From positions 1-55,952 of the forward strand of contig CAJQIB010000017.1 of assembly GCA_905478325.1 (NCBI GenBank): 55,952 nucleotides of DNA. Reading direction: 5' to 3'. Below the pieces are notes generated by a model that was given only the letters and a program-made list of their open reading frames with translations, searched no databases and was not told the DNA's origin. Source of the DNA: an uncultured Flavobacteriales bacterium. GTDB taxonomy: Bacteria > Bacteroidota > Bacteroidia > Flavobacteriales_D > Sanyastnellaceae. The translations under genes were made by a program, and so were the position numbers. Shown piece after piece: positions 34,477 to 42,366 of the stretch (its first letter is position 1; every line of letters begins with the position of its first letter).

Positions 34477-36552
34477 TCAATAGGACAACGTAATTTTCAG
34501 GGCTTCTCGTACTTTTTGAGCATCCACTAAAACATGTCGTTCCAATTGTTCATTCAAAGGAATGGCAGGAGTTTCCATCGAGCCAACCACGTGCACTGGA
34601 GCATCGAGTGATGCAAAGAGCTCCGAACTTATTCTTCCTGCCAAAGCTTGAGCAAAGCCATTCAAAACCGGTTCCTCCGTGATTACCAGAGCACGATGGG
34701 TTTGTCGAATTCGTTGACTGATGAGGTCGAAATCAACAGGTTGTATGGAACGCAGGTCCAAAATTTCAGTGGATGCCTCCAAGTCCTTGGAAGCCTCTTC
34801 TGCCCAATAAATCCCGCGGCCATATGCGATGATTGTGCATTGTGGGGTGTCCGATTTCGGGACTGTTCTCACCATGCGACCTTGTCCGATGGGTACGCGA
34901 TACGCACGATCGGGTTCGGTGCATTTGGCGGCTTCTGTTCCGGGTATTTTCGACCAGTACAGCCCTTTGTGCTCGAGCACGACGACAGGGTTGGGGTCGT
35001 AAAATGCTGCTTTCAATAGGCCTTTCAGGTCCGCTCCATTGGAAGGGTAGACCACTTTGATGCCAATGATGTTGGCCAGTACCGATTCGATGCTTGAACT
35101 GTGGTACGGTCCGCCTGATCCATAGGCGCCAATGGGCACCCGAATCACACTGCTCACCGGCCATTTTCCATTGGAAAGGAAATAGCTTCGACTGAGTTCC
35201 GTGAACAACTGATTGAGACCGGGCCAGAGATAGTCAGCGAATTGAACTTCGACGATCGGTTTCAATCCAACCGCGGACATTCCGACGGTCGACCCGATGA
35301 TGAAGGCTTCTTGAATGGGGGTGTTGAACACCCGTTCGTCTCCAAATTTTTGAGCCAATGTCGCGGCTTCTCTAAACACTCCGCCCAATCGTCCGCCAAC
35401 GTCCTGACCATATAAAAGTGCTTCAGGATGGTCTTCGAGGATTTCTTGCATGGCATGCAACGCGCAATCGACCATCAAGGACTCTTCGGCACCTGTTGGA
35501 ATTCGGGTTCCTACTTCTTCGACCACCGCAGTGGGAGCCAATACGTGCGCCATTAAATCTTCACCTCGAGGCTCTTCTGCTTCTTGCGCGCGTTCGAATT
35601 GCGCCAAAACTTCAGCCGCTACTTCCCTCTGGATGCGCTCCAGTTCTTTTCCATTGATGCCCAATGACTTTAAACGCTCAAGTAACATGGGAAGCGGATC
35701 GCGTTCACCGTGTTCTTTCAAGTCGTGCCGGTACCATTCTTTTCTAACCCCGCTCGTGTGATGTCCTAACAACGGCACATCGGCATGGACTAAGACAGGG
35801 CCACGTGTTTCTCGCGCGTGTTGGAATGCAGTTTCCATGGTGGCCATACACGCCTCTGTATCCGATCCGTTGACCCGGAAGGACCGGATCTTTGGAAATG
35901 CTTTAACCAAAGTCGAGACATCGTGCGATCGGATCTCATCCGCATGGGCAGAAATGTCCCATTCGTTGTCTTGGACGAGCCAAACCATGGGCAGACCGCG
36001 CAAATCGGTCATGTGCAGGGCTTCGCTCACTTCCCCTTCTGTCATAGCGGCATCGCCGATGGAACAAAGCACCACTGGCGGCGTTCCTGGACGATCGTGT
36101 TCGAGGCCTATGCGCTCGCTGTATTGAATGCCCAAAGCGACTCCGGTCGTTGGTATGGCCTGCATGCCCGTGGCACTACTTTGATGCGGAATTCGAGGAA
36201 GTCCCTCGTGGTTGAGCGAAGGGTGACTATAGTACGTGCGGCCTCCGCTGAAGGGGTCATCTCGCTTCGCAAACAATTGTAGCATGAGCTCCTCGGGTTT
36301 CAAGCCGATACTGAGCAGCAAACAATCGTCGCGATAGTATGCGCTGAGAAAGTCCTGTTCTTGTAAAAGCCGTCCGGCAGCAAATTGAATCGCTTCGTGC
36401 CCCCTGGAACAGGCATGCACGTACTTTGATGTCAATCGTGCATTGGCTTCGAACAAATCGCTCATAGCCCGTGCGGTGCTCATGGTTCTGAACGCTTGCA
36501 GCAATGCGTCTACCGAGATGGTTGGAGTCTTCGAAGGATTCACTTTCGCCAT
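34477..36552 (-). CDS. Fused alpha-beta E1 component of a branched-chain 2-oxo acid dehydrogenase
   Basis: It has 691 residues. The thiamine-diphosphate enzyme decarboxylates 2-oxo acids and hands the acyl group to the lipoyl E2. The alpha part (about 1-340) has the cofactor-binding motif GDAAMTEGEVSEAL at 166-179 ending in Q-D-N (194-196). The beta part (about 365-691) opens D-C-A-L-H-A-M-Q-E-I-L and has L-Y-G-Q-D-V-G-G-R-L-G-G-V-F and the transketolase C-terminal domain (L-D-L-R-S-I-Q-P-V-D). Fused E1 of this kind is standard in Bacteroidota and is usually annotated as 2-oxoisovalerate dehydrogenase. The E2 and E3 genes are not here. It is divergent from the dapF fusion with 44 bases between. 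Confidence 0.93.
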   Translation of the reverse strand: MAKVNPSKTPTISVDALLQAFRTMSTARAMSDLFEANARLTSKYVHACSRGHEAIQFAAGRLLQEQDFLSAYYRDDCLLLSIGLKPEELMLQLFAKRDDPFSGGRTYYSHPSLNHEGLPRIPHQSSATGMQAIPTTGVALGIQYSERIGLEHDRPGTPPVVLCSIGDAAMTEGEVSEALHMTDLRGLPMVWLVQDNEWDISAHADEIRSHDVSTLVKAFPKIRSFRVNGSDTEACMATMETAFQHARETRGPVLVHADVPLLGHHTSGVRKEWYRHDLKEHGERDPLPMLLERLKSLGINGKELERIQREVAAEVLAQFERAQEAEEPRGEDLMAHVLAPTAVVEEVGTRIPTGAEESLMVDCALHAMQEILEDHPEALLYGQDVGGRLGGVFREAATLAQKFGDERVFNTPIQEAFIIGSTVGMSAVGLKPIVEVQFADYLWPGLNQLFTELSRSYFLSNGKWPVSSVIRVPIGAYGSGGPYHSSSIESVLANIIGIKVVYPSNGADLKGLLKAAFYDPNPVVVLEHKGLYWSKIPGTEAAKCTEPDRAYRVPIGQGRMVRTVPKSDTPQCTIIAYGRGIYWAEEASKDLEASTEILDLRSIQPVDFDLISQRIRQTHRALVITEEPVLNGFAQALAGRISSELFASLDAPVHVVGSMETPAIPLNEQLERHVLVDAQKVREALKITLSY

Positions 36553-36596: not shown

Positions 36597-38696
36597 ATGC
36601 GTTTCACATTCTGGAAATGGGAAGGAGCGGGCAATGAATTCATGCTTTGCGATGTTCGCGATTGGCCGCAAAGGCCAACTGCGGAGCAGATTGAGCGTTG
36701 GTGCAGTCGAGAAGTGGGTGTTGGGACAGACGGCATCATTTTTTTCAAACCGCTAACACCTCCAAATGCGAGCGGAGAGCATGAAGGATGGGATATGGAT
36801 TTCCTCAACCCCGATGGTTCACGTTCGTTTTGTGGCAATGGAAGTCGCGCGCTGTTTGCTTTTTTGCGTGACGCAGGAAGCATAGGAAACGTTGGGTGGT
36901 TTAGGGCATGTGATGGAGATCATGCTGTCTGCTGGGATGAATCCCGTGGATTGCCTTCCGTTGAGATGCTTCCTGTACAACCGCCAAGAAAAGTAGAAGC
37001 AATGCATCCACAGGGCAAGGAAGCTTGGGTGGCAGACACCGGATCTCCACATCATCTAGAATGGATCGATGCGACAACGTCTCTGGAATCATTTCCGGTT
37101 GTTGAGGCGGGTCGAATGATTCGACTTCACACGCACTACGCACCCGAAGGCATCAATGTGAATTTTATTGAAAAGCGATCTGAGGATGGCCCCAACGAGC
37201 TGCACATGCGGACCTATGAACGAGGCGTGGAGTTTGAAACGCGTGGTTGTGGAACAGGAGCTGTGGCTGCTGCACTTGCGGACCACGCGCGATTGGGGGG
37301 TGATCACCACCGCACGATACGGATGAAGGGAGGAGCTTTGAATGTGCGGTTTGTTCCACCATCGGAGAAAAGGACAGCGTATGAATCTGTTTGGCTTACC
37401 GGTCCTGCAAAGCTGAATTTCAAGGGAGTTTGGGAGGCCAATGGCACGTGGAAACGTCTCGTTCTTCTGTTGATTTGGTTTGGGTTTTCGGCTTCTTTTT
37501 GTGCTCAAAATACCCCGTCGTCTTTTCCTTGGTCGGATCAAGTGCAGGTTTCTGTACTGACGGGATCTCCAGGTCAAGATGCGTATTCGGCTTGGGGCCA
37601 TACGGCCATCCGCGTCTACGATCCAGGCCATGTTCCTCCTGTCGATGTCGCGTATAACTATGGGACGTTCCAATTCAGTGATGGCTTCTACAGACGCTTT
37701 TTAAAAGGGAAATTGGACTACCGCTTGTCACTCTCGCAGTTTGCGTCGTTTCAACAGGGATACTTTCGCAATGGGCGTGCTATGTGGGAACAGCCCCTCG
37801 ATCTATCTCCGAGCGATGCGCGGGCAGTCATTTCGTTTTTAGAATGGAATCATTTGCCTGAGAATAGGGTATATGCTTACCAGTTTTTTTCTGACAATTG
37901 TTCCTCTCGGGTCCTTTCTGTTTTGGCTCAGGTTTTCGGCGATCGATTGGATGCAGGTTGCCAAAATGATGAAGCTTTAGGACAAACGTATCGCGAGGCG
38001 ATTCGGCCCTATATCCAGGGTGATCCATGGCTCGAATCGGGGATTGATTTTATTTTAGGCCCGCGGGCAGATCGCGTCATGCCGCCATGTGGTTCAAGCT
38101 TTTTGCCGGATGGTTTGATGGCGCAATTGCCGCTATGCCGCCTGGACGGAAAAGCCTTTGCAGGTCTGCGGCAGGAACTTGTTCCAGCTCAACAACCTTG
38201 GTTTCGTGCGGTCAATACACCGTCGCTGGTACATCCGTCGTTTTGGATGTTCGTGGTAGGGGTGTGGTCGCTGTTTTGGTCTTTACGTCGGGCCATCCAA
38301 TTCAAACGAGGTGAGGAAACACCGCGTTGGGAAAGGGTGGTGGGTAAGTTGGTTCAGCCGTTAGCAGCGGTTTTGGGGCTGTTGCTCTTATTGATGTGGG
38401 TCGCTACAGATCATCGGGACACCTGGGCCAACGGGAACCTGGTATGGGCCTCGCCGTTGCTGTTTGTTTTATGGTGGTCTCGCCAAAGAATGCCCCGCTT
38501 TCATCAATGGATTCATCGGTTCTTGGTTGTTGGAATACCGTTGTTTCTCATCATGTCCATCTTTGCGACGCAATTCGTATCTTTAATGAGCGCATGTGCG
38601 GCTTGGGCAGTTTGGTTGAGTTTGGATCCTTGGCTCGAGTGGCCTCACGTTTTCAAACAACCAGTCCTCCCCAAATCACGGTCAACGAGTCAATGA
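36597..38696 (+). CDS. dapF: In-frame fusion: diaminopimelate epimerase (DapF) + DUF4105/Lnb-like membrane protein
   Basis: One frame of 699 residues from the ATG at 36597, where DapF homology starts (MRFTFWKWEGAGNEF). Residues 1-280 are a complete DapF, which interconverts LL- and meso-diaminopimelate for peptidoglycan and lysine. Both active-site Cys are present: Cys79 (FCGNGSRA) and Cys218 (RGCGTGA). With no stop codon, a hydrophobic segment like a signal peptide follows (about 286-303). Then comes a DUF4105 domain with AWGHTAIRVY (His335) and FSDNCSSR (Cys435), and four to five membrane helices near the end. DUF4105 is, as I recall, the periplasmic domain of the Bacteroides lipoprotein N-acyltransferase Lnb. 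The fusion would put DapF in the cytosol and the second half outside. A lost stop or an assembly error is the alternative. Confidence 0.9.
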   Translation: MRFTFWKWEGAGNEFMLCDVRDWPQRPTAEQIERWCSREVGVGTDGIIFFKPLTPPNASGEHEGWDMDFLNPDGSRSFCGNGSRALFAFLRDAGSIGNVGWFRACDGDHAVCWDESRGLPSVEMLPVQPPRKVEAMHPQGKEAWVADTGSPHHLEWIDATTSLESFPVVEAGRMIRLHTHYAPEGINVNFIEKRSEDGPNELHMRTYERGVEFETRGCGTGAVAAALADHARLGGDHHRTIRMKGGALNVRFVPPSEKRTAYESVWLTGPAKLNFKGVWEANGTWKRLVLLLIWFGFSASFCAQNTPSSFPWSDQVQVSVLTGSPGQDAYSAWGHTAIRVYDPGHVPPVDVAYNYGTFQFSDGFYRRFLKGKLDYRLSLSQFASFQQGYFRNGRAMWEQPLDLSPSDARAVISFLEWNHLPENRVYAYQFFSDNCSSRVLSVLAQVFGDRLDAGCQNDEALGQTYREAIRPYIQGDPWLESGIDFILGPRADRVMPPCGSSFLPDGLMAQLPLCRLDGKAFAGLRQELVPAQQPWFRAVNTPSLVHPSFWMFVVGVWSLFWSLRRAIQFKRGEETPRWERVVGKLVQPLAAVLGLLLLLMWVATDHRDTWANGNLVWASPLLFVLWWSRQRMPRFHQWIHRFLVVGIPLFLIMSIFATQFVSLMSACAAWAVWLSLDPWLEWPHVFKQPVLPKSRSTSQ

Positions 38697-40252
38697 TGAA
38701 TTGGAATTTCGATGGGATAGGAGGAGTAAGGCACGGTGCGCTGTTAGCAGTCATGGTGGCATTTGCTTTGACCATTGGTTGCAATCGGGCGCCCATCCGA
38801 TGGGAAGTGGATTTGGCTCTGCCATTGATTGACGACGTGATCGAATGGACCGATGTGTTTTCAGACACGGCGCTTTTCTCTACGGATGGTACGACGGCGA
38901 CCCTAGCATACCATGGCGCTTTGTCCAGTTGGGACATCGCCTCTTTGACTCAACTCCCTGACACGGTGGTTACTGAAGACCTATCGCCGAGCTTTGTTGG
39001 AGGCCCCTTCCAAGTACCGCCTGGGGCCATCCTATTGGATACAGAGGAGGACATTGTATTCAAAGGAATCGACCAAGCCTTCCGATACATTCGCCTCGAA
39101 TCAGGTAGCATATCGTATTCTGTTGAGAGCTCCACCAATGGCTACGTCGAATTGCATTATGGCTTCCCGAGTGTGACCATTGGAGGACAGGAAGTCAACC
39201 TGGACGTGTTGCTACCACCTGCCGTATCGGGCGTTATTCAGTCGGAGACCGGTACCATTGATTTGACGGGAGCTGAAATTGATTTGACCGGTGTTAGTGG
39301 AACTGAAATCAACCGCATAGCCAGTCAATTGACCATTGGAACACCTGCGTATCTGCCCGATACCGCTCAGGTATATGGTGATGATAGCATCAGTGTGAGT
39401 ATGCATTTTCAGGACATGATGGTCCGTCAAGTGGCCGGATATTTTGGAGAAGAGTTGGTGGATTTGAATGTGGAGCAAACGGTGTTTGATCCGGAGATAT
39501 TTTTAGGTGGTTTTATTGATGTGTCGCCTTCCCGCGCTCGCCTTGAATTTCAAAACACCATCGGTGCGGATTTACGGCTCACGTTGGATGCCTTGTCCGT
39601 TGATGGAATTGCCCTGGATCACCCTGCATTTGGAGTTCCCCAGTTGATTTCTCGTGCCGATTGGCAAGGGGATGCGGTGGTTCCAGCTATTTGGGAAATG
39701 GATTTGCTCCAGACGGGACCTTCCTTTTTTGAGCTGTTGGGCTATTTGCCCCAGTCAGTGACGGTTTTGGGCTCAGCTACATTGAACCCACTGGGGGATG
39801 TTTCAGGAGGCAACGATTTCTTTGATGCGCAGGTGCCGCCTGAATTGGTGTTGGATTTGGAGTGGCCACTGAATACCCAAATCGAACATCTGAGATTGCG
39901 TCAAGTACGTGATATAGATCCGATTTCGCTGCCTGACTTCAATGGGGACCTTGTGTTGGAAGTGACCAATGGATTTCCTGTTCATTGGGGGTTGGAGTGG
40001 GTGTGGACATTTGACAATACTTCACTTGAGCCCTTGTTTTTTGCCGCGGAATCGCCACCTTTTCTCTCGGATATGACCGAGGATGTTCCGGTCGAATATC
40101 GGATTCCAATTTCTTCGGAAATGTTGCTTTCTGGAGGGCAATTGGAAATCACGGGTTCCATGCAGACCGATGGGGCCGTTGTGTTCTCTGGCAATGAACG
40201 CATTCGTCTGCAAGTGAGGGTTGAGGGAGTTCACGAAGTTGTCATCGAATGA
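38693..40252 (+). CDS. Lipoprotein of unknown function, beta-rich
   Basis: The ATG at 38693 overlaps the stop of the fusion gene (ATGA) and gives 519 residues. A longer frame exists upstream but lies inside the previous gene. The signal segment (A-V-M-V-A-F-A-L) leads to a lipobox L-T-I-G-C, so a lipid-anchored protein is likely. The mature part opens with R-W-E-V-D-L-A-L-P-L-I-D, and the rest is rich in alternating hydrophobic and polar residues, as in beta sandwiches. It has long runs of Asp, Thr and Gly and few Lys. I do not recognise a family. The next gene also overlaps by ATGA and encodes a probable beta-barrel protein, so both may act at the outer membrane. Confidence 0.75.
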   Translation: MMNWNFDGIGGVRHGALLAVMVAFALTIGCNRAPIRWEVDLALPLIDDVIEWTDVFSDTALFSTDGTTATLAYHGALSSWDIASLTQLPDTVVTEDLSPSFVGGPFQVPPGAILLDTEEDIVFKGIDQAFRYIRLESGSISYSVESSTNGYVELHYGFPSVTIGGQEVNLDVLLPPAVSGVIQSETGTIDLTGAEIDLTGVSGTEINRIASQLTIGTPAYLPDTAQVYGDDSISVSMHFQDMMVRQVAGYFGEELVDLNVEQTVFDPEIFLGGFIDVSPSRARLEFQNTIGADLRLTLDALSVDGIALDHPAFGVPQLISRADWQGDAVVPAIWEMDLLQTGPSFFELLGYLPQSVTVLGSATLNPLGDVSGGNDFFDAQVPPELVLDLEWPLNTQIEHLRLRQVRDIDPISLPDFNGDLVLEVTNGFPVHWGLEWVWTFDNTSLEPLFFAAESPPFLSDMTEDVPVEYRIPISSEMLLSGGQLEITGSMQTDGAVVFSGNERIRLQVRVEGVHEVVIE

Positions 40253-41469
40253 AGCACGGCGCAAACCATACGATTCTGTTCTTGCTAGGGTTGGCTCTAC
40301 TGCTCATACCTGCTGAACTGCTTGCGCAAGTAGAAGCGGAAATCTCCGTGGATTCTTTGGCAAACGAACCCTTTATGGATCAGTGGTCCGCAACTGTCTG
40401 GGGACAGCATCGATCCAATACTTTGGATCATGAGTTGGGCGGGATTCTTTTGCGAGGGGGAATGATCGATCGTGATTTGGTGGAGTCGGCATTGGCCAAT
40501 CAAAAGGGGGATATGGGAGCGTTTGGTTTTTCGGCGGGAGGTCTTTTTAAATGGAGCTCAACCCGTTTTTGGAAAGAGACGGATGCTCGAATTTGCGGTT
40601 CCATTCAGGGGCGATCACTCGTCGATGCGCGATGGACGCCGGAGATGTTTGAATTGGCCTTTATGGGGAATCAAGGACATCTTGGGAGGTGGGATGTCTT
40701 GGATGGCTCTCAACTCCGGTCCACAGTGTGGGGTACGGCAACGGTAGGTTTGGAAGGGCGCAATAACAATCGGGTCGAGTTGGGCTTGGCCTATCGCAAG
40801 GTTCAAATGGCGGGGCAAATCCACACCGGTTATTTCCGTGTCAGTGAAGATGTCGACTCCTTGTATGTTTCCATGCGAGCTGATGCGTCTTTTGATTCCC
40901 GCGCAGGTCTTGGTTTAGCGATCAATGGCGAATGGCATTTCATCCGGGAGGAAGCGCCTTTTGCTTTCCATGTTCAAATTCAAAACTGGGGATGGGTTGT
41001 TGTGCCTGGGGGCGGTCCACGTTACGCTGTCGATACGTTGCTCGAGACTTCGGGATTGGCGCTAGATGGCCCTGGCTGGAGCCTTGAAACGTTGCAATCT
41101 GCCGGTTTTGGTGAGGATTTCTTGAACATTGATACGGCAGGCGTATCCCTTCAGCGGTTGCCTGGGCGTTGCGATATCGCCATTGAATACCCACTGGGGC
41201 CGCGTTCAGGATGGGATGTAACCTTGCAAGTAGGAGAATGGATGCCGCTTCCTCGTGTGATGATGGGCTACCGTCGTGCTTTCGGAAAGCAATGGCAAGC
41301 TGGAATTCAAGGGGTTGTAGGAGGATGGGGGCGGTTGCGTCCAGCTGCCTGGGTACGATGGAGGGTGCCCAATGAGCGTGCATTGACGCTGTTTGTGGAG
41401 GACCCATGGGGCTGGGGCAGTTCCTCTGCTTTCGGTCGGGGCTTGACCTTGCGATTCGAGGGCTTGTGA
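40249..41469 (+). CDS. Probable outer-membrane beta-barrel protein (DUF5723-like)
   Basis: It has 406 residues with a signal peptide ending P-A-E-L-L-A-Q. The mature sequence shows many amphipathic strands with aromatic edges, for example T-A-T-V-G-L-E-G-R and R-V-E-L-G-L-A-Y-R-K-V, and it ends L-T-L-R-F-E-G-L, near the aromatic C-terminus expected of barrels. It resembles the DUF5723 group of Bacteroidota outer-membrane proteins, but I am not certain. It is coupled by ATGA to the lipoprotein upstream. kdsA starts 51 bases later. Confidence 0.7.
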   Translation: MKHGANHTILFLLGLALLLIPAELLAQVEAEISVDSLANEPFMDQWSATVWGQHRSNTLDHELGGILLRGGMIDRDLVESALANQKGDMGAFGFSAGGLFKWSSTRFWKETDARICGSIQGRSLVDARWTPEMFELAFMGNQGHLGRWDVLDGSQLRSTVWGTATVGLEGRNNNRVELGLAYRKVQMAGQIHTGYFRVSEDVDSLYVSMRADASFDSRAGLGLAINGEWHFIREEAPFAFHVQIQNWGWVVVPGGGPRYAVDTLLETSGLALDGPGWSLETLQSAGFGEDFLNIDTAGVSLQRLPGRCDIAIEYPLGPRSGWDVTLQVGEWMPLPRVMMGYRRAFGKQWQAGIQGVVGGWGRLRPAAWVRWRVPNERALTLFVEDPWGWGSSSAFGRGLTLRFEGL

Positions 41470-41520: not shown

Positions 41521-42366
41521 ATGACCTCATCGACGGAAAACAAGGCGCCTTGGACGGCGCAATCCTCTGAAATTCACGGTTGGCAGGCGGGCAATCGCCT
41601 TCAAATCATCGCCGGTCCGTGTGCCATTGAAAGCAAAGCTCTTGCCGTGCAAGTGGCCGAGACAGTCGGTGAAATGTGCGATCGTTTGGATTTGCCCTTC
41701 ATTTTCAAAGGGTCTTACCGAAAGGCCAACCGTTCCCGTTTGGACAGCTTCACAGGCATTGGTGATGATGAGGCGTTGTCCATCTTATCGGAGGTCGGTT
41801 CTTCCATGGGAGTGCGGACCACCACTGACATCCACGCAGCGGATGAAGCAGCGAAAGCTGCAGCTCACGTCGATGTCCTTCAAATTCCAGCGTTTCTCTG
41901 CCGACAGACTGATTTGCTTGTAGCCGCGGCCGAAACGGGAAAGGTGGTCAACATCAAGAAGGGCCAGTTCCTGTCGCCCGAGTCCATGAAATTCGCCGTT
42001 CAGAAGGTACAAGAATCCGGTAACGGACAGGTGTGGCTCACTGAACGCGGTACGATGATGGGCTACCAAGACTTGGTCGTGGATATGCGCAGTTTCCCTG
42101 CGATGCGGAAGTATGGACCGGTCATCGCCGACATCACACACAGCCTGCAACAACCCAATCAAACCGCAGGAGTGACCGGTGGTCGCCCCGAATTGATTGC
42201 GACCATTGGCAAGGCCTCCATTGCCGCTGGAGCTGATGGCATTTTCATAGAAACCCATCCAGATCCTGCTTCAGCGCTTTCGGATGGCGCCAATATGCTA
42301 CAACTCGATGCTTTGGAGCCGTTGTTGATTCAATTGAAGCGGGTGTATGAAGCAGTGCAAGACTGA
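41521..42366 (+). CDS. kdsA: 3-deoxy-8-phosphooctulonate synthase KdsA
   Basis: It joins phosphoenolpyruvate and arabinose 5-phosphate to form KDO 8-phosphate for the inner core of lipopolysaccharide. The ATG at 41521 gives 281 residues. A TTG at 41494 is rejected. Diagnostic blocks are IAGPCAIES, KGSYRKANRSR, QIPAFLCRQTDLL, NIKKGQFLSPE, ERGTMMGYQDLVVDMRSFP and DITHSLQQPN. The Cys in GPCAIES marks the metal-dependent type, as in Aquifex, rather than the Asn type of E. coli. It is cytosolic. Its place after DapF-Lnb and two envelope genes fits an envelope operon. Confidence 0.97.
   Translation: MTSSTENKAPWTAQSSEIHGWQAGNRLQIIAGPCAIESKALAVQVAETVGEMCDRLDLPFIFKGSYRKANRSRLDSFTGIGDDEALSILSEVGSSMGVRTTTDIHAADEAAKAAAHVDVLQIPAFLCRQTDLLVAAAETGKVVNIKKGQFLSPESMKFAVQKVQESGNGQVWLTERGTMMGYQDLVVDMRSFPAMRKYGPVIADITHSLQQPNQTAGVTGGRPELIATIGKASIAAGADGIFIETHPDPASALSDGANMLQLDALEPLLIQLKRVYEAVQD

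Follow-up and report, generated by a model that had tools for sequence, protein, structure and literature searches.

How does a bacterium use a gene in which a cytosolic enzyme runs directly into an envelope enzyme? The question is raised by a locus of an uncultured Flavobacteriales bacterium of the family Sanyastnellaceae (assembly GCA_905478325.1, contig CAJQIB010000017.1), of which a stretch of 55,952 nucleotides was analyzed as a whole (the window). Positions 36597-38696 of its forward strand make up one frame of 699 residues without a stop, in which a complete diaminopimelate epimerase (DapF) is followed by an equally complete Lnb-like/DUF4105 protein. Read in the other two frames, this interval has 22 and 26 stops, and the chance of a 420-codon stop-free run at this base composition is about 3e-9. 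The first half, residues 1-280 (36597..37436, +), matches the DapF family model TIGR00652 over residues 4-278 with 147.1 bits against a cut-off of 114.65, and PF01678 (DAP_epimerase) with 76.6 bits against 34.7. After a junction at residues 281-303 (37437..37505, +), predicted to be an internal signal peptide, follow the periplasmic Lnb_N domain (DUF4105, permuted papain-like; residues 314-448, 37536..37940, +), which scores 79.3 bits against the 22.2 of PF13387, and C-terminal transmembrane helices (residues 547-686, 38235..38654, +), where PF25221 (5TMH_Lnb) covers residues 585-673 with 34.0 bits against 25.2. The Lnb equivalog model NF051878 gives 160.8 bits, far below its cut-off of 550, and we therefore call the second half Lnb-like. 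Thus, a sequence-only reading of this DNA, which had proposed DapF and DUF4105 in a single frame, holds as to both domains; the uncut product has a calculated mass of 79.3 kDa, where that reading had estimated about 78 kDa.

The predicted catalytic residues of both halves are intact. We compared 42 fused rows (41 genomes and L036, a copy of G067; L048 is absent) with 20 unfused ones. The two presumed catalytic cysteines of DapF are Cys79 (36831..36833, +), found in 38/38 fused rows having the residue (four show gaps) and 20/20 unfused rows, and Cys218 (37248..37250, +), found in 42/42 and 20/20. Likewise, the His-then-Cys order of a permuted NlpC/P60 core is present in the second half, with the presumed catalytic His335 (37599..37601, +) in 41/41 fused rows with the residue and the presumed nucleophile Cys435 (37899..37901, +) in 40/40, both also in 20/20 unfused rows. 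All four residues had been assigned correctly from the sequence by itself. Passages of PMC12994826 and PMC13103446 equate DUF4105 with Lnb, the lipoprotein N-acyltransferase of Bacteroides, an identity that the sequence-only reading had proposed. The fused gene would encode two active enzymes, the Lnb-like function of the second being assigned by homology.

An AF2 model of the fused protein has a mean pLDDT of 86.8 and a pTM of 0.54, so that the arrangement of the two halves is not fixed by it. It places a helix at 284-299, a link with pLDDT below 50 at 295-308, and C-terminal helices at 547-570, 586-603, 621-631, 633-653, 663-675 and 678-686. The best Foldseek matches of the DapF half are DapF structures (8qzy, E 1.7e-20). 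Modelled separately, the Lnb domain reaches a mean pLDDT of 88.7 and has no Foldseek match at E 0.001, and the Lnb half has no match among PDB sequences up to E 1. The best PDB match of the separate domain model, TseH (6v98), is weak (E 0.035, probability 0.92) and agrees with PMC12994826, which places DUF4105 among permuted NlpC/P60 enzymes beside TseH; a listing in PMC10318531 also has it as papain-like.

We looked for the same single frame in relatives, as the sequence-only reading had proposed. Searches of four genera, designated g1 (that of the window), g14, g18 and g21, covered 22, 2, 11 and 14 genomes, respectively, and the junction is crossed in one frame in 19, 2, 7 and 14 of them. 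Every genome that covers the junction is therefore fused (42/49); the remaining seven are cut at contig ends (G054, G069) or are without the locus (G050, G074-G077). The fused members that were aligned share 37 to 97% identity with the protein of the window, and L036 is 97% identical. Relatives with two separate genes, named in advance as the observation that would tell against a true fusion, are absent among the clade members whose assembly covers the junction, whereas 20/20 genomes of other genera read in detail are of this kind. For comparisons along the protein we used an alignment of the window and 33 loci (34 rows), leaving out L001 (the same as the window), copies or near-copies (L002, L011, L024, L036), junction-crossing pieces (L016, L017, L019, L033, L048) and pieces without the junction (L022, L031, L032, L034, L035, L049, L050). 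Lnb_N is found in 34/34 of these members and 5TMH_Lnb in 27/34 (E 0.01), some members being partial.

A tree built without the junction columns from 60 of 62 rows (those with more than 350 filled columns; 40 fused, 20 unfused) separates all fused rows from the unfused ones by a branch with support 100/98, so that fused versus unfused needs a single change. We infer from this tree that the fusion was fixed once, in the ancestor of the four genera. Under the drawn root an unfused genus, g20, is the sister of the fused group; the chosen outgroup is not one side of any branch. A cysteine pair of the Lnb domain agrees with this placing: C455 and C498 (codons 37959-37961 and 38088-38090) are both Cys in 40/40 fused rows with the residue and, among the 20 unfused rows, in the five g20 rows only, and they may form a disulfide added to the domain. 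Outside the family we found no fusion among the 399 genomes of an order sample (the family itself accounts for 114 of these) or among 395 genomes each from the class and the phylum (matches cut at 1e-58); the match lists for the four-genera and order searches ran down to weak matches, the samples overlap, with a few family members in those of class and phylum, and a rare or very diverged fusion could have been missed. Both halves belong to known families, and their joint architecture, with its predicted cut site, is specific to this clade in the samples searched; no DapF fusion or DapF-DUF4105 link was found in the literature searched, where subscription journals are mostly absent and one may have been published.

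The codons of the junction look like coding sequence in the fused frame. Compared with G063, they differ by 11 synonymous and 6 nonsynonymous changes, a dN/dS of 0.12. The value is 0.29 against G062; against G067 it is 0.91, with too few changes to be informative (1 and 3), and against G068 the synonymous sites are saturated.

Unfused relatives suggest how the gene arose. In 17 of the 20 genomes read in detail lnb directly follows dapF, with a gap of -11 to +1 nt at the most likely start, and in 13/20 lnb could begin at a start codon that overlaps the dapF stop by 4 nt (ATGA or GTGA). The fusion thus joined genes that were already neighbors. At such an overlap a small indel would be enough to merge the two frames, and the fusion may have been an accident between adjacent operon genes that then became fixed. 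The other three genomes (L055, L056 and L060; two of g4 and one of g16) have dapF and lnb 820-850 nt apart, and the DNA overlapping their dapF stop reads as the start MI(I/L)(V/I)ADSGSTK, which is reminiscent of a BadF/NagK-type kinase.

The surroundings of the fused gene are conserved as well. Upstream and divergent lies a gene for a 2-oxoacid dehydrogenase E1 (34477-36552, -; 691 residues; E1_dh, Transket_pyr, Transketolase_C) that unites the alpha and beta parts in a single chain. Downstream, a lipoprotein gene (38693..40252, +; ~520 aa) overlaps the stop of the fused gene by 4 nt (ATGA), and a gene for a secreted barrel candidate (40249..41469, +; ~400 aa) overlaps the lipoprotein stop by 4 nt; neither has a Pfam match, and they are possibly an uncharacterized outer-membrane pair. 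A KdsA-like gene (DAHP_synth_1, 41521..42366, +; PF00793, 207 bits) follows on the same strand, its ATG at 41521 coming after a gap of 51 nt without overlap. The sequence-only reading had called all three genes coupled; an overlap exists for the first two and not for kdsA. The order of E1 on the opposite strand, dapF-lnb, lipoprotein, barrel candidate and kdsA is kept in flanks from g1, g18 (two genomes) and g21, and a g14 flank has the same neighbors, with a longer overlapping ORF listed in place of the fused gene. The g14, g18 and g21 flanks keep E1 beside the fused gene and have lipoprotein and barrel homologues after Lnb in the same order. The one flank read from unfused g20 has the lipoprotein homologue after lnb and no E1 or kdsA match.

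These neighbors also bear on the five genomes without the locus, for which we weighed gene loss against an assembly gap. Loss seemed likely at first, with G075 and G077 being 94% and 92% complete and a DAP_epimerase search empty in all five. For G076, a close E1 orthologue cut at base 1 of its contig speaks for a gap and not for loss; loss was likewise set aside for G075, in which kdsA lies ~2.5 kb into the contig, the fused gene of L080 ending ~3.0 kb upstream of kdsA. No close E1 or KdsA orthologue occurs in G050, G074 or G077, where the whole locus is missing, a state that is compatible with loss too.

When the complete fused protein was searched against its own genome, this locus was the one match, and no second copy of either half turned up. 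Furthermore, no Lnt scores above cut-off in 114 family genomes (41 have weak matches below it), compared with 7/14 control genomes. Hence the fused gene seems to be the source of both DapF and the N-acyltransferase candidate, and the absence of Lnt above cut-off is consistent with a predicted N-acylation of diacyl lipoproteins by the Lnb-like half. For the LL-DAP route upstream of DapF, DapL (TIGR03542) has three weak matches in the own genome, none above cut-off.

The junction consists of a short basic stretch (W-K-R), a hydrophobic core at 288-297 and then S-A-S-F-C-A. We read it as a signal peptide whose predicted cleavage site for signal peptidase I, A303^Q304 (37503..37508, +), is conserved, a feature that the sequence-only reading had missed. 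A^Q occurs at the seam in 20/34 rows (8/13 in g1, 1/2 in g14, 3/7 in g18, 8/12 in g21), whereas shuffles give a mean of 5.46 and a maximum of 13, none of 2000 being as high; the rows are related, and such counts are not independent events. At four downstream helices, which served as controls, A^Q is found in 0/30, 0/34, 0/33 and 1/32 rows, and A-Q elsewhere in the fused proteins is rarer than expected (37 vs 53.5). Other patterns separate less well. A[QN] is found at the seam in 24/34 rows, but also at the control helix TM2 in 16/34 (0/2000 shuffles as high). A strict [AVSTGIL]-x-A site follows the core in 30/34 rows (shuffle mean 18.0, 0/500 as high), compared with 6/30, 17/34, 14/33 and 16/32 at the four helices, of which TM2 (17/34; 11/500 as high) and TM4 (16/32; 33/500) also exceed their own shuffles, though less so. 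Since the strict site and A[QN] are enriched at control helices too, A^Q is the one pattern that sets the seam apart. We discarded a looser signal-peptidase pattern, which all 42 rows have and which is therefore uninformative.

An A^Q cut agrees with what is usual in the phylum: PMC5837995 gives Gln after the cut in a mean of 71% of predicted signal peptidase I substrates of Bacteroidetes. Within the window, [AGS]Q follows the core in 12/16 signal-peptide-like ORFs, and in the flanks of relatives, a tiny sample, the rule holds in 2/4 (L081 1/3, L079 1/1, L083 none). By a looser count, 8/20 unfused lnb N-termini show A-Q or G-Q after residue 15 of the stretch taken, so that we see no sign of the seam site decaying after fusion. 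The window itself has the hydrophobic core followed by A^Q, but its seam, S-F-C-A^Q, carries the atypical Phe301 at -3 where a small or aliphatic residue is expected, making it one of 4/34 rows without the strict site; 14/34 rows are without A^Q. With a signal peptide of this kind at the seam, the DapF and Lnb activities may be separated after synthesis.

We therefore favor the reading that the fused gene today encodes a polyprotein that is probably split close to A303^Q304, and give it a probability of about 0.58; it is the conserved seam that suggests the cut. One ribosome would make DapF first and then the rest of the chain. The ancestral Lnb signal peptide, now internal, would be taken by the Sec machinery, the Lnb domain being exported while DapF remains in the cytosol, and signal peptidase I would probably cut just after the signal, at A303^Q304 in the window. 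The predicted products are a DapF of 33.9 kDa, tethered to the membrane by the former signal peptide at its C terminus, and a separate Lnb of 45.4 kDa that spans the membrane several times. The Gln exposed at the new N terminus of Lnb may turn into pyroglutamate, as it does in other substrates of this peptidase in Bacteroidota. The frame kept in 42 genomes, the single change on the tree, the low junction dN/dS, the one match in the own genome, the lack of Lnt above cut-off in the family, the Q-rule of the phylum and the two seam counts above their shuffles all argue for this polyprotein, as do 8/42 genomes, including that of the window, with no in-frame ATG, GTG or TTG between the end of DapF and the core. 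The Phe at -3, the rows without A^Q and the start candidates of the other genomes count against it, and so does the habit of the enzyme: the signals known to be cut by signal peptidase I are mostly N-terminal, and a signal placed after a folded domain of 280 residues is unusual. Cut or not, the signal helix would tie DapF to the inner membrane, in keeping with an earlier suggestion that the fusion would pin the epimerase there.

The main rival to a cut polyprotein is an uncut bifunctional membrane protein, a 79-kDa chain that permanently carries cytosolic DapF and periplasmic Lnb, with the old signal peptide serving as transmembrane anchor. The unbroken frame of the 42 junction-crossing genomes, the AF2 helix at 284-299 and the poor -3 residue of the window would all suit it. 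A pure anchor, however, needs no A^Q, and this pair is kept at the seam and nearly absent at the other helices. Moreover, the uncharged runs at the junction are short, with a mean of 15 residues in 42 fused rows and a like 15.4 in 19 rows labelled unfused (a set that includes L048, in fact a fused piece with a DapF tail, and skips L060 and L066, which lack the motif). We consider an uncut chain rather unlikely.

Alternatively, ribosomes may also start inside the frame, so that Lnb is made by itself and begins with a normal signal peptide, whether or not the read-through fusion is produced too. Some in-frame ATG, GTG or TTG precedes the core in 34/42 genomes (a count that left out L036 and pieces without the junction), and internal initiation is possible there; a start at the 4-nt overlap in 13/20 unfused relatives also agrees with it. 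It is plausible in g21, where the sixth codon of the DapF tail motif, at which an ordinary signal peptide would begin, is ATG in 10/14 and TTG in 3/14 genomes, so that this genus may make both the fused chain and a separate Lnb. The candidate nested start is seen in L021, L023-L030, L037, L040, L046 and L048, and the remaining genome of the 14 has TTA. As a general account, however, internal initiation meets 5/19 genomes of g1 (the window and four relatives) and 3/7 of g18 with none of the three start codons in frame before the core, and the nearest ATG of the window (37441) lies in another frame that stops after 10 codons. In the lineage of the window the fused chain must then carry Lnb, unless translation begins at a rare start codon, and we regard internal initiation as a distinctly improbable explanation for the clade.

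A further proposal, compatible with the other readings, is that the fusion serves to regulate the supply of peptidoglycan precursors together with the maturation of lipoproteins. The architecture kept in 42 genomes and the envelope-related look of the next downstream genes are in its favor. Nevertheless, 17/20 unfused genomes have the two genes as operon neighbors (-11 to +1 nt) without fusion, so that a small indel suffices to explain it, a cut seam would separate DapF from Lnb, and to our knowledge the two share no substrate or product. The sequence-only reading had suggested such a tie between precursor supply and lipoprotein maturation; beyond co-conservation we find nothing that bears this out, and the fusion can be explained without it. 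We hold this coupling to be very doubtful. Finally, an assembly or sequencing artefact, a missing base or lost stop at the junction of a genome in 59 contigs, is hardly credible and was rejected, since the same frame recurs in 42 genomes of such varied identity and the junction shows codon changes relative to G063.

Returning to the polyprotein, we rate at even odds the wider statement that in this clade a single precursor gives rise to both an essential enzyme of the cytosol and an enzyme of the envelope, being split by signal peptidase I at an internal Q-rule signal peptide, with the spent signal left as a permanent membrane tail on DapF. If true, meso-DAP would be made at the inner membrane, its synthesis standing in a constant 1:1 ratio to a lipoprotein N-acyltransferase. 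Both halves are expected to matter, DapF for meso-DAP and Lnb as N-acyltransferase candidate where no Lnt passes cut-off. That a single chain has been kept across the clade suggests that a folded cytosolic enzyme can precede a Sec signal, and that the signal is still under selection for cutting. Were the cut real, Bacteroidota would offer a naturally occurring polyprotein with an internal signal, well suited to finding out if signal peptidase I can act on such signals and what happens to the signal peptide left behind. The dapF-lnb case also carries a warning, namely that gene fusion need not imply fused function.

Comparison with known systems places the locus as follows. Like other DapF proteins (TIGR00652), the first half scores above the family cut-off, has both cysteines and matches solved DapF structures in fold, but it lacks a stop after the normal tail and runs into a signal peptide and a membrane protein. 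The second half shares with Lnb of Bacteroides the PF13387 and PF25221 domains above cut-off, the invariant His/Cys pair and a retained signal peptide; unlike Lnb, it has in the window no common start codon of its own, and it falls short of the NF051878 cut-off (160.8 vs 550 bits). An internal signal sequence is also found in the Bradyrhizobium fbcH cytochrome b/c1 precursor, a bacterial chain that is cut to give two mature proteins. Those two are parts of a single complex, whereas the locus described here joins a soluble enzyme of the cytosol to a membrane enzyme from another pathway. As in the Bacteroidetes Q-rule substrates of signal peptidase I (PMC5837995), A^Q ends a short hydrophobic core; in the fused protein, however, the predicted signal is internal and lies 280 residues into the chain.
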